A stretch of DNA of 64,000 bases from Myxococcus stipitatus DSM 14675 (GTDB taxonomy: Bacteria; Myxococcota; Myxococcia; Myxococcales; Myxococcaceae): positions 9,551,501 to 9,615,500 of the forward strand of contig NC_020126.1 of assembly GCF_000331735.1 (NCBI RefSeq), written 5' to 3'. The notes under the pieces were generated by a model that saw only the letters and a program-made list of their open reading frames with translations, ran no database searches and had not been told where the DNA came from. Positions within the stretch are counted from its first letter, which is position 1; each line of letters begins with the position of its first letter. The translations under genes were made by a program, and so were the position numbers. Shown one piece after another: positions 3,080 through 60,742 of this stretch.

Positions 3080-4999
3080 TCACTCCATCAGCAGCGGCAG
3101 GCGCACCGAGAACGTGGTGCCTTCTCCCACGGTGCTCGTCACGATGAGACGGCCCCCGTGGTTCTCCACGATGCCCTGGCAGATGGAGAGCCCCAGGCCC
3201 GTGCCCTTCCCTTCCGGCTTCGTGGTGAAGAAGGGCTCGAAGATGCGCTGCAGGTTCTTCGGGTCGATGCCCGACCCCGTGTCGCGCACCGACACCACGG
3301 CCTCTTCGCCCTCGCGTCGGGTCGACAGGTAGACCGAGCCTCCCGGCGGCATCGCGTGGCAGGCGTTGGTGATGAGGTTGACGAACACCTGCACCAGGTT
3401 CGCGCGCACCGCCGACAAGAGCGGCAGCTCCACGTACTCGCGATGCACGCTCACGCGCGCCTGCGACACGACGTGCTCGCAGAAGCCCACCGCCATGTCG
3501 ACGACGGCGTTGAGCTGCACCCGCTCCGGCTTGTCCTGCGCCGGCCGCGCGTAGCTCACCAGGTCCCGCGTGAAGCGCAGGATGCGGTGGCTGCTCTCCA
3601 GGATCTTCCGGAGCTTGTCCTGGTCCGCGGGGTTCGCCCCCGGCGTCGTCCGCGAGCGCTGGAGCAGCGCGTCCGCGTACGTGGCCACCGCGGTCATCGG
3701 GTTGTTGATTTCATGCACCACGCTGGCCGCGAGCTGACCGATGGAGGCCAGCTTCTCCGCGTGGATGATGCGCTTCTCCAGCTCCTTCACCACCGTGATG
3801 TCCTGGCCGATGGCGATGACGCCCTCCACCTCGCCATGATGCGCGAGCATCGAGGACGTGGCGAAGGACACCCGGACCTCGTTCCCCTCGCGGGACAACA
3901 AGCGGGTCTCGAAGCTGTTCACCGACTCGCCGCGAATCGCGGCGGCGATGACCTGGGACAGCCGCAGGTGCTCGCTCTCCGGCACCAGGCCGAAGATGTC
4001 CCGGCCCAGGACGTCCTCCTTGCGGAAGCCCGTCAGCGCGCTCAGGGCCTGGTTGAACACCACCACCTGCTTGTCGCGGTTGGCCACCAGGATGAGGGCG
4101 TTCGCCTTCTCCAGCAGGTCCTCCAGGTACTTGCGGACGAACGTCAGCTCGTCGATGAGCTTCGCGTTCTTCACCGCCACGGCCACCTGGCTGGCGAGCT
4201 GCAACAGCACGCGCTCGTCATGCTGCACGTCCGCGTCCAGGCCCTCCGGGTACTCCATGTTGATGGCGCCGAAGAGCTGCCCGCTCGCCACCAGCGGAGC
4301 GCTCACGCCATGCGTGCTGCCCTGGAACAGCAGCGGCACCTCGTCCAGCACCGACACCCGTCCCTGCGGCAGCGCCGAGCGCCCCAGGTTCAGCTTCTCC
4401 ACCGCGCGCCGCAGCAGCACCAGCGGCTCGTGCGCGCCCTCCTTCAGCCGACCTTCCGCGTAGAGCGACGTCAGGCCGCCGGTGCGAGAGTCGGTGATGC
4501 GGATGCAGAACGAGCGGCCCGGGAACAGCTCCTTCACCCCGCGAGCCACCGCCGCCACCAGCTCCTCCTCGCCGCCCGCCTCCGCCACGCTGCGGCCCAG
4601 GTCCAGCAGCACGCCTTCCGTGCGCGCCTGCTCCAGCAGCGCCCGCTCCGCCAGCACCAGCCGGTTGCGCGCGAGCTCCGGGTCATTCCGGGCGCGCACC
4701 GCCACCACGTCGCCTCGCCGCGACAGCGTCAGCACCGCGCCGGGCATGCCCGCCAGCGACAGCTCCACGTCACAGCTCGCGCCATCGGCGGGCACCGCCG
4801 CGGAGACCAGCATCCGCGAGACATCCTCCACCGTCGCGCGGTGGTCCTCGCAGAAGCGGTGGAAGGCCTCGTTGACCGCCACCAGGCGCAGCGTCGGGTC
4901 ACACAGGGCCGCGGGGGCGTCGAGCGCCTCGAAGAAGGCCTGGAAGGACTCGGGCCCCGGGCCCCCCGGGATTCGCATCGCTCGGGTGTCAGTCTTCAT
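3080..4999 (-). CDS. PAS-GAF-PAS sensor histidine kinase
   Basis: A 639-aa cytoplasmic sensor kinase with no membrane segment. Reading from the N-terminus: a PAS-like segment (about 15-65), a GAF domain (about 125-285), a PAS domain (about 295-405), a HisKA domain with H-box VVHEINNP (phospho-acceptor His429), and a complete HATPase domain with N-box NLITNACHAM, G1 motif DTGSGI and G2 motif GKGTGLGL. It should autophosphorylate and pass phosphate to a response regulator, but none is encoded nearby. The ATG overlaps the end of the upstream kinase-like gene by 11 nt, so the two are translated from one mRNA. The input ligand is not evident; GAF and PAS domains suggest small-molecule or redox sensing. 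Confidence 0.93.
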   Translation of the reverse strand: MKTDTRAMRIPGGPGPESFQAFFEALDAPAALCDPTLRLVAVNEAFHRFCEDHRATVEDVSRMLVSAAVPADGASCDVELSLAGMPGAVLTLSRRGDVVAVRARNDPELARNRLVLAERALLEQARTEGVLLDLGRSVAEAGGEEELVAAVARGVKELFPGRSFCIRITDSRTGGLTSLYAEGRLKEGAHEPLVLLRRAVEKLNLGRSALPQGRVSVLDEVPLLFQGSTHGVSAPLVASGQLFGAINMEYPEGLDADVQHDERVLLQLASQVAVAVKNAKLIDELTFVRKYLEDLLEKANALILVANRDKQVVVFNQALSALTGFRKEDVLGRDIFGLVPESEHLRLSQVIAAAIRGESVNSFETRLLSREGNEVRVSFATSSMLAHHGEVEGVIAIGQDITVVKELEKRIIHAEKLASIGQLAASVVHEINNPMTAVATYADALLQRSRTTPGANPADQDKLRKILESSHRILRFTRDLVSYARPAQDKPERVQLNAVVDMAVGFCEHVVSQARVSVHREYVELPLLSAVRANLVQVFVNLITNACHAMPPGGSVYLSTRREGEEAVVSVRDTGSGIDPKNLQRIFEPFFTTKPEGKGTGLGLSICQGIVENHGGRLIVTSTVGEGTTFSVRLPLLME

Positions 5000-52570: not shown

Positions 52571-53242
52571 ATGGCCGCCAAGACCTCTTCCTCCGAGAGC
52601 CCCGCGCGTCCGCCTCGGCGCACGCAGCAGGAGCGGCGCGAGTCGACCCGGCGGAAGCTGTTGGACGCCACCATCGAGACGCTGGTGGAGCTGGGGCACG
52701 CGCGGCTGACGACGGTGGAGGTGGCGAAGCGCGCGGGCGTGTCACAGGGCGCGCTCTTCACGCACTTCGACACGAAGGCGGAGCTGCTCGCCGCGGCGGT
52801 GGAGCACCTCTTTCCTCGGCTCATCCAGGACTATCTCGCGGGGGTCGGCGCGCGGCCCTCCGGCAGGGACCGCATCAGCACCGCGGTGGACCTGTTGTGG
52901 GCCGCGTTCCAGCGGCCGGAGCTGCAAGCCGCCATCGAGTTGTATGTGGCGGCGCGCACGGACTCGGAGCTCCAGGTGGCGCTGGCCGCGGTGGACGGGC
53001 CGCACCGGGAGAACCTGCACCGGGTGGCGCGCGAGCTGTTCCCCGAGGCCGCGGACGCCTATCCGGAGTTCGACTCCGTGGTGGAGCTGGCGCTCGACGC
53101 CGTGCAGGGCGCGGCGATGGGCGGCAGCGCCCGACCGAAGGACCCCGCCCACCGCCGTATGCTGGATGCGCTGACGCGGTTTCTGCGCAGCACCTTCTCA
53201 CCCCATTCGCGCCGCCCCTCGAAACGGCGACGCCGCGACTGA
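52571..53242 (+). CDS. TetR-family transcriptional regulator
   Basis: 223 aa. The N-terminal HTH (about 20-65) has STRRKLLDATIETLVELGHARLTTVEVAKRAGVSQGALFTHFDTKAELL, the TetR_N signature (quoted in the family as T.eeIa..AGVS.GtlY.hF.sKe.Ll). The rest is the all-helical ligand-binding dimerisation domain. A Lys/Arg-rich N-tail and C-tail are present. It is transcribed with the sterol-desaturase-family gene, 21 nt apart, and a TGAC/GTCA inverted repeat lies in its promoter, so it probably represses this unit and responds to a lipid-like ligand (inference). Confidence 0.88.
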   Translation: MAAKTSSSESPARPPRRTQQERRESTRRKLLDATIETLVELGHARLTTVEVAKRAGVSQGALFTHFDTKAELLAAAVEHLFPRLIQDYLAGVGARPSGRDRISTAVDLLWAAFQRPELQAAIELYVAARTDSELQVALAAVDGPHRENLHRVARELFPEAADAYPEFDSVVELALDAVQGAAMGGSARPKDPAHRRMLDALTRFLRSTFSPHSRRPSKRRRRD

Positions 53243-53263
53243 GCACCCCGCTGGAGGTCTTCC

Positions 53264-54166
53264 ATGGACGCCACGCACATCCCGGACCTCATCACTCCCG
53301 CGATTCCCGTCTTCATCCTGACGGTGGTGGCCGAGGCGCTGTGGGTGAAGAAGCTGCGAGACGAGGGACGCGACTTCGCGGGGCACACCGTGAAGGACTC
53401 GCTCGCCAGCCTCTCCATGGGGCTGGGCAACGTCTTCATCAACGTGGTGTGGAAGTTCGTCGCCTTCGCCGGCTACCTGGCGCTCTACAAGCTGACGCCG
53501 CTGCGCGTGGGCTCGGGCGTGCTGGCCTGGGTGCTGCTCTTCTTCGCGGAGGACCTCTGCTACTACTGGTTCCATCGCATCCACCACGAGAGCCGCTTCT
53601 TCTGGGCCTCGCACGTGGTGCACCACTCCAGCCAGCACTACAACCTGACCACCGCGCTGCGACAGACGTGGACGCCGCCGACGAGCTGGGTGTTCTGGGC
53701 ACCGCTGGCGCTGCTGGGCTTCTCGCCCGTGATGATTGTCGTCCAGCAGTCGGTGAGCCTCTTGTATCAATACTGGATTCACACCGAGGCCATCGTCCGG
53801 CTGCCGCGCCCGCTGGAGTGGCTGCTCAACACGCCCTCCCATCACCGGGTGCATCACGCGTCCAACCCGCGCTACCTCGACAAGAACTACGCGGGCATCC
53901 TCATCATCTGGGACCGGCTGTTCGGCACCTTCGAGCCCGAGGTCGAGAAGCCCATCTACGGCCTCACCAAGAACCTCCAGACGTTCAACCCGGTGCGCAT
54001 CGCGTTCCATGAGTTCGCCTCCATCGCGCGCGACGCGATGAAGCCGGGGCCGTGGAAGCAGCGGCTGGGCTACATCTTCCGCAATCCCGCGTGGAAGCCC
54101 GAGGCGCCGCGGTCCGCTCCGCCGGGCAATCCTCCCGCGTCGGAGCCGCTGCGGCCTTCGGCGTGA
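53264..54166 (+). CDS. Sterol desaturase / fatty acid hydroxylase-family membrane enzyme
   Basis: 300 aa with about four membrane helices. The di-iron histidine clusters are all present: WFHRIHHE, HVVHHSSQHYN and PSHHRVHH, giving the eight-histidine pattern of FA_hydroxylase (PF04116). Such enzymes hydroxylate or desaturate sterols, fatty acids or carotenoids at the membrane. ATG 53264 follows GGAGG at 6 nt. The C-terminus is a soluble Pro-rich tail. Myxobacteria make unusual sterols and carotenoids, but this sequence alone does not fix the substrate. Confidence 0.88.
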   Translation: MDATHIPDLITPAIPVFILTVVAEALWVKKLRDEGRDFAGHTVKDSLASLSMGLGNVFINVVWKFVAFAGYLALYKLTPLRVGSGVLAWVLLFFAEDLCYYWFHRIHHESRFFWASHVVHHSSQHYNLTTALRQTWTPPTSWVFWAPLALLGFSPVMIVVQQSVSLLYQYWIHTEAIVRLPRPLEWLLNTPSHHRVHHASNPRYLDKNYAGILIIWDRLFGTFEPEVEKPIYGLTKNLQTFNPVRIAFHEFASIARDAMKPGPWKQRLGYIFRNPAWKPEAPRSAPPGNPPASEPLRPSA

Positions 54167-54334: not shown

Positions 54335-55924
54335 ATGACCGAGCGTGAGCTGTGGGAGCGGTACCAGCGGTATCTGAGCGTCGTCCCGTCGCTGGGGTTC
54401 TCCCTCGACGTCTCGCGCATGGGCTTCGCGGCGGACTTCCTGGAGCGGATGCGGCCTCGGCTGGAGGAGGCGTTCTCGCGGATGGAGGCGCTGGAGAAGG
54501 GCGCCATCGCCAACCCGGATGAGAACCGCCGCGTGGGGCACTACTGGCTGCGCGCGCCGGAGCTCGCGCCCGAGCCCGCGCTGTCGAAGGACATCACGAG
54601 CACGGTGGCGGACATCCACGCGTTCGCGCGCGAGGTGCACGAGGGGAAGCTCAAGCCCCCCAAGGCGCCGCGCTTCACGCACCTGCTCCTGGTGGGCATC
54701 GGCGGGTCGGCGCTGGGGCCGCAGCTGGTCGCGGACGCGCTGACGTCGAAGGCGGACGCGATGCAGGTGTCCTTCTTCGACAACACGGACCCGGATGGGA
54801 TGGACCGGGTGCTGGGGCAGCTGGGCGCGCGGCTGGCCGAGACGCTGACGGTGGTCATCAGCAAGTCCGGCGGCACGAAGGAGACGCGCAACGGCATGCT
54901 GGAGGCGGAGCGCGCGTACAAGGAGCAGGGGCTCGCCTTCAACAAGCACGCGGTGGCCATCACCGGCGCGGGCAGTGAGCTGGACCAGCACGCGCGCAAG
55001 CAGGGCTGGCTGCGCACCTTCCCCATGTGGGACTGGGTCGGGGGGCGCACGTCGGTGATGTCCGCGGTGGGGCTGTTGCCCGCGCGGCTCCAGGGCCTGG
55101 ACATCGACGCGATGCTCGAGGGCGCGCGGGAGATGGACGTGGCGACGCGGCAGCGCGACGCGGTGAAGAACCCCGCGGCGCTGCTCGCGCTGATGTGGTT
55201 CCACGCGGGCGATGGGCGCGGGCTGAAGGACATGGTCATCCTGCCGTACAAGGACCGCCTGCTCCTGATGTCGCGCTACCTCCAGCAGCTCGTCATGGAG
55301 TCGCTGGGCAAGGAGAAGGACCTGGACGGCCAGGTGGTGAACCAGGGCATCGCCGTCTACGGGAACAAGGGCTCCACGGACCAGCACGCGTATGTGCAGC
55401 AGCTTCGCGAGGGGGTGCCCAACTTCTTCGCCACCTTCATCGAGGTGTTGAAGGACCGCGACGGCGAGTCGATGGAGGTCGAGAGCGGCACCACGAGCGG
55501 CGACTACCTGCTGGGCTTCCTCCTGGGAACGCGCCGCGCGCTGTACGAGAAGGGCCGCGAGTCGCTCACGCTCACGGTTCCGGACGTGAGCGCGCGCACG
55601 GTGGGCGCGCTGATTGCACTCTACGAGCGCGCGGTGGGCCTGTACGCCAGCCTCGTGCACATCAACGCGTACCATCAGCCAGGCGTCGAGGCGGGCAAGA
55701 AGGCCGCGACGAGCGTGCTGGCGATTCAGCAGAAGCTCACGGCGCGGCTGCGCGAGGCCCGCGCGGACGCTCGCACCGCGGAGCAGCTCGCCGCGGACAT
55801 CGGACAGCCCGATGAGGTGGAGACCGTCTACAAGGTGCTGGAGCACCTGGCCGCGAACCCCGGGCGAGGCGTGAAGCGGACCGGTGGACCGGGGCCCGCC
55901 GAGGTGCGCTTCCAGACGAAGTGA
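54335..55924 (+). CDS. pgi: Glucose-6-phosphate isomerase
   Basis: 529 aa. The PGI fold is clear: [12 protein letters not shown] (phosphate loop), [12 protein letters not shown] (second SIS loop with the Ser/Thr phosphate ligands), signature 1 [15 protein letters not shown], and the catalytic region [16 protein letters not shown]. It interconverts glucose-6-phosphate and fructose-6-phosphate in glycolysis and gluconeogenesis. The ATG follows GGAGG at 4 nt. It stands alone with a strong terminator after it. Length and motif order are those of bacterial PGI, with no sign of truncation. Confidence 0.95.
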
Positions 55925-55930
55925 GTGATT

Positions 55931-55959
55931 CGAGCCCGGGACCTTCCAGCCCGGGCTCG
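55931..55959 (+). terminator. Hairpin terminator after pgi
   Basis: CGAGCCCGGG at 55931-55940 pairs perfectly with CCCGGGCTCG at 55950-55959 around a 9-nt loop, 6 nt after the stop. Confidence 0.7.
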
Positions 55960-56035
55960 CCCATCACCTCCGCGCCAGGAAGCTCCTCCCCGCTGACTTC
56001 CGGGTGAAGCTCACTGGCGCGGACCCATCACCCAC

Positions 56036-57028
56036 TCAGCCAATGCCCCAGAGCTTGCGAGCCTCCTCGGCGATGACGTCGGGGTACTCCTCGGGGAAGA
56101 AGAGCTTCGCGCCGGGAATGCGGCGCACGCCACGGGACGCGCCGAAGGTCTGGTCGAGGTAGTCGGCGCTCGACTGCGAGAAGATGGTGTCGCCCGTTCC
56201 CCAGATGATGCGCGTGGGGACCTTGCACTTCTGCAGCTCGGGGCCGATGCCCGCCAGCGAGTTGGCCTCCAGCGCCAGCGTGTACGCGTGCGCCTGCGCC
56301 TTGCCGCGCGGCGTGCGCACCAGCGGACCGAAGTAGTACTCGATGGCCTCGTCCGTGGGGTTCGCCGGGTTCGAGAAGCACATCGCCCCGATGCCCTTGT
56401 CCGAACGCGCGAGCGCCTTGTCCGCGAGCCACGGCGCCAGCCACGCGTCCACGTACTCACCCGTGCGCGCCAGCTCGATGACCGGCAGCACCGCGGGAGG
56501 CGGGCACTCGCTCTCCACATCGCAGTTGGTCAGCAGCAGCGTGCGCACGCGCTCGGGATGACGGGTGACCAGCAGCTGCGCGATGGCGCCGCCGCTGTCG
56601 TTCGCGATGACATCCGCCGTCTTGATGGAGAGCCGGTCCATCAACTCGATGAGCATCTTCACCTGCTCGTCCGGCGAATAGCTCTGCCCCTCCGCGACCT
56701 CCGTGAAGCCCAGCCCCATGAAGTCGGGCGCGACACAGCGGCGATACGGAGACAGCCGCTCGATGGCGCCTCGCCACTGGAAGCTGTTCAGCGGAAAGCC
56801 GTGCAGGAACAGCGCGGCCTCGCCGGTGCCGCGCTCGATATAGGCGATGCGCCCGAAGCGGCTGTCCAGGTACTTGCGCGAGGAGTGATACGCCTCGGCG
56901 TTCAGCGTGCCCCCTTCCGGGGAAGCGCTCGCGCCACTCACTCCGCGAGGCATGCAGCCAGCGAGCGCGGTGGCGGCCAGTGCGGTGGTCGTGAAACCCA
57001 GAAACTCCCTGCGATGCATTGAACTCAT
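56036..57028 (-). CDS. Lipid-anchored alpha/beta hydrolase with Asp nucleophile position (haloalkane dehalogenase-like)
   Basis: 330 aa from ATG 57028, preceded by AGGAAG at 9 nt. The N-terminus is a twin-arginine-type lipoprotein signal (HRREFLGF...ALAGC, Cys25). The fold shows LFLHGFPLNS (oxyanion loop) and the nucleophile elbow VIANDSGGA, where Asp144 occupies the nucleophile position as in haloalkane dehalogenases and epoxide hydrolases. The distal catalytic His expected after PGA is not seen: the sequence reads IPGAKLFFPEEYPD. It may thus be a binding homologue or use another base. The SDR gene at 57278 is divergent. Confidence 0.78.
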   Translation of the reverse strand: MSSMHRREFLGFTTTALAATALAGCMPRGVSGASASPEGGTLNAEAYHSSRKYLDSRFGRIAYIERGTGEAALFLHGFPLNSFQWRGAIERLSPYRRCVAPDFMGLGFTEVAEGQSYSPDEQVKMLIELMDRLSIKTADVIANDSGGAIAQLLVTRHPERVRTLLLTNCDVESECPPPAVLPVIELARTGEYVDAWLAPWLADKALARSDKGIGAMCFSNPANPTDEAIEYYFGPLVRTPRGKAQAHAYTLALEANSLAGIGPELQKCKVPTRIIWGTGDTIFSQSSADYLDQTFGASRGVRRIPGAKLFFPEEYPDVIAEEARKLWGIG

Positions 57029-57169
57029 GACAAAAGTCTTCCTGTAAGGGGTGCCAGCGGCCGTTCGGCCGTTCGGGGCGCGGACTTGTAACGAGCCACT
57101 CAAAAGGCCACTCGGGAAAAGTCACGTGCGCTGAGAGATCCCAGAATCGGAGACTCGAAGCCCACGATG

Positions 57170-57186
57170 CGAGACGATACGTCTCG
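57170..57186. promoter_or_regulatory. Operator-like inverted repeat 1 (CGAGACG-N3-CGTCTCG)
   Basis: A perfect 7-3-7 inverted repeat, CGAGACG ATA CGTCTCG, ends 2 nt upstream of a TTGACA box. The same arms recur at 57222. Typical of a dimeric repressor site. Confidence 0.7.
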
Positions 57187-57188
57187 TG

Positions 57189-57217
57189 TTGACATGAGGT
57201 TCCGGTGAGGCTACTTC
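57189..57217 (+). promoter_or_regulatory. Candidate sigma-70-type promoter of the SDR gene
   Basis: TTGACA at 57189-57194, a 17-nt spacer and TACTTC at 57212-57217. The -35 matches consensus and the -10 is weak. It is flanked by the two inverted repeats and lies 60 nt upstream of the ATG at 57278. Confidence 0.55.
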
Positions 57218-57221
57218 TTCA

Positions 57222-57238
57222 CGAGACGGCGCGTCTCG
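57222..57238. promoter_or_regulatory. Operator-like inverted repeat 2 (CGAGACG-N3-CGTCTCG)
   Basis: The same 17-bp arms as repeat 1 with centre GCG, placed around the expected +1, 52 nt centre to centre from the first copy (about five helical turns). Confidence 0.7.
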
Positions 57239-57277
57239 CGCCGCTCTTCTCGTAACCCATTGGAAAGAGGTCGTTTC

Positions 57278-58129
57278 ATGCCTGGGGCAAGCAAGGTCTG
57301 GCTCATCACTGGAAGCAGCCGAGGACTGGGCCGGGCGTTCGCGGAGGCGGCCCTGGCGGCGGGAGACAGGGTCGTGGCCACGGCTCGGGACCCGGGCCGG
57401 CTCCAGGAGTTGATCGCCCGATACCCGGAGCACTGCGTGGCGCTGCCGCTGGATGTGACACATCGAGACGCGGTGTTTCAGTGTATCGAGAAAGGCATTG
57501 CGGCCTTCGGGCAGCTCGACGTGGTCGTGAACAACGCGGGCTATGGGCTGGTGGGCACCATCGAGGAGCACTCCGAAGCCGACCTCCGCGCGCAGATGGA
57601 GACCAATCTGTTCGGCGCGCTGTGGATGACGCAGGCGGTGCTTCCGCACCTGCGGGCGCGACGGACGGGGCACATCGTGCAGATCTCCAGCGTGGGCGGC
57701 GTTGGGAGCATGCCGACGTTCGGCGCGTACAACGCGAGCAAGTGGGCGCTGGAGGGCTTCAGCGAGGCACTCGCCGCGGAGGTGGCGCCGTGGGGGATTC
57801 GCGTGACACTCGTCGAGCCGGGCTCGTTCGCGACGGACTGGAGCTGGGGAAGCATGCGCTTCGCCGCTCCGATGCCCGCCTATGACGAGCTGCGCACGTC
57901 CTTGTTCGGCACGAGCCAGGTCCCCTGGGACTTGAGTCACCAGGCCCACGACACCAGTGCGTCGCCCGAGGTCGCCGCGCGGGAGCTGCTCGAGCACGTG
58001 AATCGCGAGACGGGCCCGCTGCGCCTGCTCCTCGGCGAAGACGCACCGGTCCAGGTGCGAACCCTCCTGGACGGACGCCGTGAAGACTATCTGCGCAACC
58101 CGCGCTTCCAGGCGCTGGTCGCTCGCTGA
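57278..58129 (+). CDS. Short-chain dehydrogenase/reductase under a twin-operator promoter
   Basis: 283 aa from ATG 57278 (GAAAGAGG ribosome-binding site). Classical SDR: cofactor loop TGSSRGLGR, acidic/Arg strand ATARDPGRL, NNAGYG, and catalytic Tyr151/Lys155 in AYNASKW. The C-terminal 80 residues extend the substrate loop (FATDWSWGSMRFAAPMPAYDEL). It is similar in plan to SDRs acting on ketones and aldehydes; no substrate is implied. The promoter carries two identical-arm inverted repeats, suggesting tight repression and induction. The SUFU-domain gene follows after 31 nt. Confidence 0.88.
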   Translation: MPGASKVWLITGSSRGLGRAFAEAALAAGDRVVATARDPGRLQELIARYPEHCVALPLDVTHRDAVFQCIEKGIAAFGQLDVVVNNAGYGLVGTIEEHSEADLRAQMETNLFGALWMTQAVLPHLRARRTGHIVQISSVGGVGSMPTFGAYNASKWALEGFSEALAAEVAPWGIRVTLVEPGSFATDWSWGSMRFAAPMPAYDELRTSLFGTSQVPWDLSHQAHDTSASPEVAARELLEHVNRETGPLRLLLGEDAPVQVRTLLDGRREDYLRNPRFQALVAR

Positions 58130-58160
58130 AGAGACGGGGGTCAGCGCGTAGACTGGCCTC

Positions 58161-58748
58161 ATGGATTCACCCGAGCTGTTTCAACACGACCTCCGGCGCA
58201 CCGTCGTCCTGGGCGCCTACCTGCGGCACTGGGGCATGCCGCTCGACCGGCAGCGCTTCTCCCGGGAGACGGACATCGTCGAGGTCTACCTGTTCCCCGC
58301 CACCGCGGAGTCACCCGTCGCACGCGTCGCCACCGTCGGTGCTTCCTCTTTCGCTCGGGAGGGAGGAACGCGCTCCGAGTTCCTGCTCGTGCTGTCCGCG
58401 GACCTGGGCGGCGCGACGTTCGAGGAGGTCGCCGGCTTCCTCATGGACTTCGTCCTCTATTCGCGAAGGGACGACGTGGAGGTGCAGCCGGGCCGAGCCG
58501 TGCCCCCGTCTCCCCTGGTGCCGAAGTCCTGGCCCACGCGCGCGCTCCTCGTGGACGAGGCCCTGGGCGAAGACGAGGAGTTCGAGCGGCTCCACCTCGG
58601 TCCGCAACACATCGAGCTGTGGTGGCTCGTGCCGCTGCATGAGGCGGAGCATGCGTTCATCCAGAAGGAGGGGTTCGACGCGTTCAGTGAGCTCCTGGAC
58701 GCGAGTGAATCAAGCCCCGCGGAGGTCCACCGCCCCTCGCTCGTCTGA
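58161..58748 (+). CDS. Suppressor-of-Fused (SUFU) domain protein
   Basis: 195 aa, soluble. A SUFU-like fold is indicated by the acidic N-terminal region with VEVYLFPAT, the FVLYSRRDDVEVQPGRAV segment and the C-terminal motif IELWWLVPLHEAEHAFIQKEGFDAF, which is strongly conserved in bacterial SUFU proteins (WLLPIxxxExxFxxxxG). In bacteria this family often serves as immunity protein for polymorphic toxins. No toxin gene is adjacent, so a housekeeping or orphan-immunity role is equally possible. It follows the SDR gene by 31 nt and is convergent with the LysR gene, 3 nt apart. Confidence 0.8.
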   Translation: MDSPELFQHDLRRTVVLGAYLRHWGMPLDRQRFSRETDIVEVYLFPATAESPVARVATVGASSFAREGGTRSEFLLVLSADLGGATFEEVAGFLMDFVLYSRRDDVEVQPGRAVPPSPLVPKSWPTRALLVDEALGEDEEFERLHLGPQHIELWWLVPLHEAEHAFIQKEGFDAFSELLDASESSPAEVHRPSLV

Positions 58749-58751
58749 GGA

Positions 58752-59654
58752 CTATCGCGCCGAGGCTTCTGTCCCCGCGAGCCCGGCCTTCTCGCGCTTG
58801 CACAGCTCCACCACCCAGTCCGAGGCCGCGCGCACCCGAGGGCTGCGCTGCAAGTCCTTGTGCAAGGCCAGCCACAGCGGGCGCTTTCCCAGGACACCCG
58901 CGCCCACTCGTGTCAGCCGGGTGTCTCGCTCTCCGGTGAGACAAGGCAGGAGCGCGACTCCGAGTCCCGCCGCCGCGGCCTCGCGCAGCACGGTGGTGCT
59001 GTTGCTCTGGAGCAACCTGCGGCCACCTTGGGTGAGGCGTGTGAGCTCCTCGGACTCGGGGCCCGAGGTGAGCGTCGTCCGGTAGGCCAGCACGGAGTGG
59101 TTCCGGAAGTCCCCCGGGCGAGGCGCTCCTCGACGCCGCAGGTACGCTCGCGCCGCGTACATCGCGAACGCCATGTCGCCCACCTTGCGAATCACCAGGG
59201 CATCCCCGCGAGGCGGAGCGATTCGCAGCGCCAGGTCCGCGTCCCCTCGCTGGAGATCGACCAGGTCCGAGCCGACGACGAGCTCCACGTTGAGTCCGGG
59301 ATGGCGGGCATGCAGCTCCCCCAGGTGTGGAGCGAGCAGCGCCTGGGCCAGGTACTCGGTGGCCGCGATGCGGACGGTGCCCTCCGCCTTCTCCTCGCGG
59401 GACACGGCATCCGAGAGCGAGCGGAGCGAGTCCTCCATCTCCCGCGCGCGAGCCACCACGGCCTCGGCCTCCTCGGTGAGTCCCAGGGTGCGAGCGCCGC
59501 GCAGCACGAGCCGGGTCCCCAGGGCTTTCTCCAGGGCGGCGAGGCGGCGGCCCACCGTGGTGGCGTCCACTCGCAGCTCGCGAGCCGCTCCAGCGAGCGA
59601 GCCCTGGCGTGCCACGGCGAGCAGGTAGCGCAAGTCGTCCCATCGCATATCCAT
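58752..59654 (-). CDS. LysR-family transcriptional regulator
   Basis: 300 aa from ATG 59654 (the upstream frame to 59696 has a Cys-rich, non-protein-like composition). The N-terminal winged HTH (about 1-60: RWDDLRYLLAVARQGSLAGAARELRVDATTVGRRLAALEKAL, in the family pattern) is followed by a LysR_substrate domain. It is divergent from the alpha/beta hydrolase at 59762, the usual arrangement for a LysR regulator and its target. TGCAG/CTGCA dyads lie in the 107-nt intergenic region. Confidence 0.9.
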   Translation of the reverse strand: MDMRWDDLRYLLAVARQGSLAGAARELRVDATTVGRRLAALEKALGTRLVLRGARTLGLTEEAEAVVARAREMEDSLRSLSDAVSREEKAEGTVRIAATEYLAQALLAPHLGELHARHPGLNVELVVGSDLVDLQRGDADLALRIAPPRGDALVIRKVGDMAFAMYAARAYLRRRGAPRPGDFRNHSVLAYRTTLTSGPESEELTRLTQGGRRLLQSNSTTVLREAAAAGLGVALLPCLTGERDTRLTRVGAGVLGKRPLWLALHKDLQRSPRVRAASDWVVELCKREKAGLAGTEASAR

Positions 59655-59656
59655 GC

Positions 59657-59682
59657 CTGCAATGGTGCAGCAAAGCCCTGCA
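59657..59682. promoter_or_regulatory. Candidate LysR-binding dyads (CTGCA/TGCAG)
   Basis: CTGCA at 59657, TGCAG at 59666 and CTGCA at 59678 form overlapping inverted repeats; TGCAG-N7-CTGCA spans 59666-59682. They lie just upstream of the LysR start, between the divergent genes. Confidence 0.4.
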
Positions 59683-59761
59683 TTCCCGCAGCACATCCAG
59701 CGCTATCTCGTGCGACAGGAGCTGCGGCACCCACACAGCCCGGCGCGACCAGGAGCACACG

Positions 59762-60742
59762 ATGTCGATGTCCATGTTTCATCCGACGACGCTGGAGCAG
59801 GAGACAAACCACCCGGAGCAGCGTCTGCCGGTCGAGGCCGCGCCGGCGGTGGAGTCCGGGGGCTCGCGTCCTGGGGTGGCGTTCCGCTTCCAGGCGAGGG
59901 ATGGCTACTCGCTGGCCGCGACGCTCCATGAGCCCGAGGGCTCACAGCTGGGCGCCGTGGTGCTGGTGAGTGGAGCCACGGGTGCGCGGCAGCGGTACTA
60001 CTCGCGCTTCGCGGCCTTCCTCGCGCAGCGGGGTTTTCCGACCATCACCTTCGACTACCGAGGCATCGGCGGCTCGCGTCCGCAGTCACTCGAGGGCTTC
60101 GAGGCGCGCATGGAGGACTGGGGGAGCCAGGACCTCGCGGGCGCCATCGACATGGTGCGCGAGCGGTATCCGAACCACCGGTTGCTCCTGGTGGGCCACA
60201 GCGTTGGCGGGCAACTCCTGGGGCTCGCGCCCAACGCGGGCGAGGTGTCCGCGCTGCTGAACGTGGCGGCGGGCTCGGGCTACTACAAGCTGTTCCCCCA
60301 GAGCTGGCGCATGGGGCTCACCTGGCGCGTGGTGATGCCCACGCTGGTGCGAGCGTTCGGGAAGTTGCCGGGCTGGGCGGGCACGGCGGAGGACCTGCCC
60401 GCGGGAGTGGCTGAGCAGTGGGCGCGGTGGTGCCTGTCCCCTGACTACCTGTTGAGCGAGGGCGGCGAGGCGCGTCGCGAGGCCTATGCGTCGCTGTACC
60501 TGCCGCTGCGGGCGTACAGCTTCGCGGACGACGAGATGGCGCCGCGTGCGGCGGTGGAGCACCTGTTGTCGTTCTACGCGGACTCGCTGATGGAGCACCG
60601 TCACGTGTCCCCGAAGGACCTGGGACGGGCCATCGGTCACTTCGGATTCTTCCGTGAGACGTTCCGAGACACGCTCTGGTGCGAAGCCACCGAGTGGCTC
60701 GCAATCCACGCCCTCACGCCTCGCCCTGCCACCGGGGCCTGA
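59762..60742 (+). CDS. Alpha/beta hydrolase divergent from the LysR regulator
   Basis: 326 aa from ATG 59762. Elements: VVLVSGATGARQRYY, DYRGIGGSRP, nucleophile elbow LLVGHSVGGQLL with the catalytic serine, and a histidine in AIGHFGFF. There is an N-terminal 40-aa acidic tail but no signal peptide. It looks like a cytoplasmic serine hydrolase of the 'alpha/beta hydrolase family protein' class seen beside LysR regulators; the substrate is unknown. It is convergent with the membrane-protein gene, 12 nt apart. Confidence 0.82.
   Translation: MSMSMFHPTTLEQETNHPEQRLPVEAAPAVESGGSRPGVAFRFQARDGYSLAATLHEPEGSQLGAVVLVSGATGARQRYYSRFAAFLAQRGFPTITFDYRGIGGSRPQSLEGFEARMEDWGSQDLAGAIDMVRERYPNHRLLLVGHSVGGQLLGLAPNAGEVSALLNVAAGSGYYKLFPQSWRMGLTWRVVMPTLVRAFGKLPGWAGTAEDLPAGVAEQWARWCLSPDYLLSEGGEARREAYASLYLPLRAYSFADDEMAPRAAVEHLLSFYADSLMEHRHVSPKDLGRAIGHFGFFRETFRDTLWCEATEWLAIHALTPRPATGA

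Follow-up and report, generated by a model that had tools for sequence, protein, structure and literature searches.

Two perfect copies of the palindrome CGAGACG-N3-CGTCTCG stand in front of an SDR-family oxidoreductase gene of Myxococcus stipitatus DSM 14675, within the 64,000-nucleotide stretch of DNA analysed here (the window), and the question raised by this locus is whether they serve as operators and, if so, which protein reads them. The comparisons described below indicate that the palindromes are most likely the landing sites of a distant TetR-type repressor, which gives the bare motif a specific protein partner that can be tested.

Layout of the probable operator pair and the SDR promoter

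The first palindrome, O1 (CGAGACG-ATA-CGTCTCG), occupies 57170..57186 and the second, O2 (CGAGACG-GCG-CGTCTCG), 57222..57238, neither being assigned to a strand; both copies are exact and their centres are 52 bp apart (4.95 turns), in agreement with the initial annotation. The half-site centres within each 7-3-7 palindrome are separated by 10 bp, about one helical turn, as in an operator. O1 ends 2 bp 5' of the -35 hexamer TTGACA (57189..57194, + strand), which reads TTGACA in four of five orthologous promoters and TTAACA in that of G014, so the first copy does abut the -35 box as originally described. The proposed -10 element, TACTTC, follows after a 17-bp spacer (57212..57217, + strand; sequence and conservation only), and this weak hexamer would set +1 at the start of O2, the position near +1 given earlier for the second copy thus depending on a -10 read by eye. 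Read in that manner, the promoter is overlapped as expected of TetR-family operators, with O1 beside the -35 and the expected start of transcription covered by O2. A consensus scan of 56950-57350 returned no sigma-70-like promoter.

The presumed regulated gene (57278..58129, + strand) belongs to the SDR subfamily NF006114 (PRK08263), the profile being matched with 338.5 bits against a cut-off of 290. Its stop codon is followed after 31 bp by a gene for a SUFU-domain protein (58161..58748, + strand), which is possibly co-transcribed with it.

Close SDR orthologues (79-100% identity) were found in five of 41 genomes, namely the window's own and four congeners, and in all five the gene is preceded by two perfect sites 52 bp apart. 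When the five orthologous promoters were aligned, all 28 arm columns of the two operators were invariant, as against 18 of the 41 other columns of the span (one of six in the N3 cores and 17 of 35 between the sites), with a test value of 2e-7 that is a guide only, the genomes being related. By contrast with these orthologues, the SDR paralogues of the same genus (47-50% identity) carried no site with up to two mismatches within 400 bp upstream in any of the 11 listed. Among 14 genomes that gave an SDR match, nine hold only such a paralogue, lacking the operator, which leaves few genomes with the SDR arm of the regulon.

Occurrence of the motif and its controls

The whole 10,350,586-bp genome was searched for the perfect and the mismatched forms of the motif, with the reversed pattern as the control. 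A genome-wide count had been proposed by the initial annotation, for which many random copies would have spoken against operators; the perfect form occurs twice, as O1 and O2, both at the SDR promoter, and there is no abundance of random perfect copies. Five further copies carry one mismatch, one of them lying in the intergene between a TetR gene and a glycosyltransferase gene (at 8,062,730) and three within ORFs of 1544, 709, and 515 codons. A one-mismatch site at 8.0957 Mb was rejected as a further target, given that no site with zero or one mismatch was present in any of the six relatives holding that stretch. With up to two mismatches, 105 places were counted in the genome versus 78 for the reversed control, and with up to three the 64-kb window held 13 matches versus 15.7 expected. 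The loose motif therefore runs close to its controls, and only the strict form is informative. Across genomes, the perfect motif was present in 20 of 61 and the perfect reversed pattern in none of the 61.

Some of the perfect sites elsewhere fall outside promoters. Those of G017, G022, G024 (ATP-synthase-alpha-like ORF), and G020 (245-aa ORF) fall within predicted coding sequence and were taken for chance occurrences; those of G042, G054, and G057 lie inside predicted ORFs or at their ends. In G031, palindromes form arrays of four (L056:5692-5844) and two (L057:5437-5501), 42-48 bp apart, and their placement between convergent gene ends suggests a repeat family that has nothing to do with operators; the same genome carries further motif sites in L027 and L058.

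The G031 arrays, in which the same 17-mer sits where an operator role is unlikely, and the frequency with which the motif arises by chance at up to two mismatches could together be taken to mean that O1 and O2 are themselves repeats, hairpins, or a chance pair. This reading is hardly credible, however, for the genome holds no perfect copy besides the two in this one promoter, the arms stay constant while the N3 changes, the reversed control is zero, the motif pairs with one regulator clade (see below), and the region 55900-59000 gave no Rfam match at gathering scores.

A candidate regulator encoded 1.55 Mb away

The initial annotation had noted that no regulator adjoins the operator pair, and the best candidate does appear to be a distant one. 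It is a TetR-family protein of 203 aa (G000:C1:8062038-8062646), encoded 1.55 Mb from the SDR gene and divergently from the glycosyltransferase gene mentioned above. Its TetR_N helix-turn-helix scores 47.4 bits against PF00440 (cut-off 24) and its C-terminal ligand domain 95.4 bits against PF16859 TetR_C_11 (cut-off 32), and its recognition helix reads GVGKQTIYRWWP. The intergene shared with the glycosyltransferase contains two diverged operators, with one and two mismatches in the window genome, which lie 56-57 bp apart in the five genomes aligned. In the operator on the -35 side of the glycosyltransferase, the outer half is degenerate and the inner ACGCAACGTCTCGTCTTGACAAT is invariant in those five genomes; this O1-type site ends 2 bp ahead of TTGAC, just as in the SDR promoter.

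The glycosyltransferase belongs to the macrolide family TIGR01426 (420.6 bits, cut-off 260), and its 534 bits against the macrolide-inactivating family NF033129 fall short of the cut-off of 700. Since the TetR gene adjoins an enzyme of the antibiotic-glycosylating type, the SDR and the glycosyltransferase are probably parts of a single small circuit, scattered over the genome, that responds to chemicals. This link across 1.55 Mb would amount to one joint reaction of a predatory bacterium to foreign compounds.

To place this TetR among its paralogues, the TetR_N scan of the window genome covered 150 of 204 candidates and listed 50 matches. Among those listed, QTIYRWW occurs in one, the trans-encoded TetR, which alone has an upstream site with at most one mismatch; GKQTLYRWW likewise occurs in one, a 39% paralogue with a single two-mismatch site; and the other 48 have no site with up to two mismatches within 500 bp upstream. 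The paralogue (G000:C1:7895806-7896261) might be proposed as the protein that reads O1 and O2, alone or shared with the trans-encoded TetR. Its recognition helix is nearly the same, it ranks second among the genome's PF16859 matches, above the cut-off, and it carries CGAGAC-N5-GTCTCG just before its own start (L221). Yet that site has two mismatches, one in each arm where it borders the N3 core; its predicted neighbours, inspected by eye, showed neither an SDR nor a macrolide-type glycosyltransferase; and the linkage to SDR and glycosyltransferase genes in other genomes belongs to the other TetR, so that a role for the paralogue as the regulator is distinctly unlikely. Cross-talk of the paralogue at the same operators is possible.

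Pairing of recognition helix and operator in the phylum

Orthologues of the trans-encoded TetR were sought in 195 genomes of the phylum, up to 16 candidates being scored per genome, which yielded at least 21 close orthologues (65-100%) and at least 11 distant hits (33-40%). A site with at most two mismatches precedes the regulator gene within about 110 bp in 20 of the 21 close orthologues found. The remaining one, in a genome from another family of the order (G058), adjoins an SDR orthologue (69%) whose promoter has one perfect and one one-mismatch operator, and this neighbourhood of regulator and SDR is the strongest single link between the two.

Within the window's genus, a close TetR orthologue is present in 11 of 27 genomes, ten of which have a perfect site beside the glycosyltransferase or the SDR, the eleventh (G013) having one-mismatch sites only. 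In the window genome the perfect sites are at the SDR and none is at the glycosyltransferase; in G012 a perfect site lies at the glycosyltransferase, and other ORFs separate the glycosyltransferase from tetR. Genomes of the same genus are not independent in any of these comparisons.

The distant TetRs allow the operator to be related to the helix. A site with at most one mismatch accompanies all five of those with a GKQT[IV]YRWW helix, and a site with at most two mismatches accompanies none of the six with a GKAT helix, the latter being a small negative set. Four same-helix distant TetRs (G002, G115, G116, and G143; L073, L090, L091, and L089) are divergent from a shorter SDR-like ORF with the operator in between, and this ORF, recognised by eye, is a third enzyme type linked to the operator.

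Wider relatives

A scan of GTDB genomes gave at least 392 loci, and the best 80, found in part through the QTIYRWW peptide, were compared. One of these 80 is from a Myxococcaceae MAG, and the other 79 are from genera that we take to be actinomycetes. Within 300 bp upstream of the regulator in the best 80 of 392, the best site was perfect in 42, had one mismatch in 23 and two in 12, and was absent in three; a site was thus present in 77 of 80, a count that, the set having been chosen in this way, is no unbiased rate, and the rule is tested only for that helix. The reversed control in the same 80 gave none at up to two mismatches and five at three. The pairing of regulator and operator is therefore seen in two phyla, together with the conservation of the sites.

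The SDR and glycosyltransferase context also recurs. Among the best 80 of 392 loci, 27 contain an SDR homologue (43-59%), divergent from and adjacent to the regulator in 25; at L135 the SDR is downstream of the regulator and preceded by two operators, and at L187 it is about 720 bp from the regulator. A glycosyltransferase homologue (57-67%) is found in six of the 80, divergent and adjacent in five. Of these best 80 loci, none combines the two enzymes within about 2.5 kb, and 47 contain neither. In this set either homologue thus occurs beside the regulator without the other, which means that the pair sharing an operator in the window genome alternates beside the regulator elsewhere, among other neighbours. 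In 18 of the best 80 of 392 (L142, L160, L161, and others, many of them Streptomyces), the regulator of this TetR clade, with a related operator, has an MCPP-containing ORF nearby instead, which is presumably dimethylargininase-like.

The register between operator and promoter is shared as well. In 16 of the 30 listed loci with an adjacent SDR or glycosyltransferase, the -35-side operator extends as far as the TTG of TTGAC and includes it; in six more of those 30 the operator end CGTCTCG is followed by TCTTGAC, like the glycosyltransferase promoter of the window genome. Taken together, the comparative evidence backs the initial proposal that the sites on either side of the SDR promoter are operators for a regulator that binds as a dimer. 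The pair looks functional, and a trans-acting TetR is strongly supported for it by these comparisons.

Operator spacing and the case for a loop

The 52-bp separation had been read by the initial annotation as a geometry suited to a looping or cooperative repressor, and the corresponding explanation is that one repressor binds O1 and O2 cooperatively or by means of a loop in the DNA for which a spacing of five turns is required. The spacing is indeed close to integral (4.95 turns) and invariant in five of five SDR orthologues, and Ms6564, whose recognition helix is the same, contacts its DNA in the form of a dimer of dimers according to the CprB paper (PMC4150764). In 19 myxobacterial tetR/glycosyltransferase intergenes the spacing is moreover clustered at 53-58 bp (Rayleigh p 0.0002; close relatives, not independent). 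That cluster, however, is centred some 3 bp away from a whole number of turns, two dimers paired on a single 31-bp site do not make a loop between separate sites, and the constant 52 bp could be accounted for by the fixed -35/-10/+1 geometry by itself. Furthermore, two sites were scored in 23 of the 30 listed SDR- or glycosyltransferase-adjacent loci (the myxobacterial MAG accounting for one of the 23), and their spacing, 28-60 bp, shows no preference for a helical phase (Rayleigh p about 0.87). Such a range of unphased spacings argues against a loop, helically phased spacing being absent, and neither looping nor obligatory five-turn cooperativity is likely.

Other genes of the window

Upstream of the operators and divergent from the SDR gene is an alpha/beta hydrolase gene (56036..57028, - strand), haloalkane-dehalogenase-like and with a Tat/lipobox-like N-terminus by eye, for which shared control by the operators had been suggested. 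The gene has a conserved upstream block of its own (57085..57116, - strand) that is recognisable in five of five genomes, including G004, in which the operators are about 620 bp off. Persistence of the block in G004 without close operators makes shared control unlikely, and the suggestion finds no backing here, though O1 may interfere weakly with the hydrolase through closeness in the four other genomes. Between the operators and the hydrolase of G004 (L055, about 4210-4830) lies a stretch that by eye resembles a stop-broken AraC-type gene.

Two regulator genes within the window were considered as local candidates. The TetR gene at 52571-53242 has another recognition helix and no site with up to three mismatches in the 500 bp upstream; it is followed by a fatty acid hydroxylase-like gene (52571-54166 for both). 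The box expected for LysR proteins is T-N11-A, which is unlike the O1/O2 palindrome, and the LysR gene at 58752-59696 was set aside as judged by that expected box alone. It is divergent from an alpha/beta hydrolase gene, the two forming a separate local regulatory pair (58752-60742).

Proposed mechanism

We consider it very probable that O1 and O2 are operators of a single trans-encoded TetR repressor, released by a ligand, that co-controls the SDR and the glycosyltransferase. Binding, repression, the class of the ligand, and the substrates of the enzymes are what we infer from the pattern of sites and neighbours. Without inducer, TetR dimers would sit on O1 (against the -35) and on O2 (over the start site), and their occupancy would keep RNA polymerase off the SDR promoter; tetR and the glycosyltransferase gene would be repressed likewise via the operators of their intergene. 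The inducer would be a small hydrophobic compound, for which a polyketide or a macrolide-like natural product is plausible; acting in the PF16859 domain, it would release TetR, whereupon the SDR and the glycosyltransferase would be induced together and might modify the releasing compound. Two independent steric locks on one promoter constitute the simplest mechanism. What weighs against this explanation is that tetR's own operators are the weaker ones in the window genome (one and two mismatches), that the -10 is weak, and that neither enzyme accompanies the regulator in the 47 of the best 80 of 392 relatives noted above.

A broader conjecture, to which we give slightly less than an even chance, is that a TetR clade of actinomycetes and myxobacteria with the fixed helix GKQT[IV]YRWW reads CGAGACG-N3-CGTCTCG and controls one out of a small interchangeable set of natural-product-modifying enzymes, an SDR or an OleD-like glycosyltransferase, a promoter frequently being enclosed by two operators. 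In a few Myxococcus-type genomes, on this conjecture, the two versions with one target each became merged into one scattered regulon, and a single sensor would switch on both the reduction and the glycosylation of a given foreign compound. The helix-to-operator rule could predict the regulons of this TetR clade in many actinomycetes.

Comparison with known systems

SACE_3986 of Saccharopolyspora erythraea reportedly represses an adjacent short-chain dehydrogenase. Among structures, OleD/Kcn28 are the closest PDB matches of the tetR-adjacent glycosyltransferase, over almost the full length (E 9e-147 to 5e-134), a likeness qualified by the score below the NF033129 cut-off. Of the five best PDB matches of the trans-encoded TetR, only one is tied to a DNA complex, namely Ms6564 of Mycobacterium smegmatis (PDB 4JL3, 4JKZ), whose recognition helix contains the identical stretch GVGKQTIYRWWP. 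The overall similarity is, however, modest (E 2e-21), the comparison being one of protein sequence.

The literature comparison took in PMC6346578, PMC4258057, PMC4150764, PMC5895659, PMC6018408, PMC4486848, PMC3742746, and PMC4564863. In 4JL3, Ms6564 is bound to DNA, 31 bp being occupied by a dimer of dimers; the protein is described as a master regulator of DNA-damage/repair genes, and the letter run that brought up this paper belongs to primers (PMC4150764). The TetR-family regulator SACE_5754 of S. erythraea represses a macrolide glycosyltransferase gene and other targets, but through the operator TYMAGG-n2/n4/n11-KKTKRA (PMC6346578), and SACE_3986 is a TetR-family regulator affecting erythromycin production, according to a title in the reference lists of PMC6346578 and PMC4258057. 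SAV576 of Streptomyces avermitilis, also of the TetR family, has several palindromes in one divergent promoter region but differs in its consensus, CCRTACRVYGTATGS, and in its target genes (PMC3742746), and the sequence protected by InbR (PMC4564863) differs from CGAGACG-N3-CGTCTCG. The operator CGAGACG-N3-CGTCTCG was not found among the titles and abstract openings listed by the literature searches.

As far as that literature goes, the identity of the regulator, the cross-phylum operator rule, and the two-enzyme regulon are new, whereas the kind of system is already known. As in repressors of the TetR/QacR/SimR kind, a TetR_N helix-turn-helix protein is combined with a palindrome over a divergent promoter and a resistance-type enzyme gene beside the regulator; unlike in that kind, the best operators are found here at a second target 1.55 Mb from the regulator, and each promoter has two full operators.
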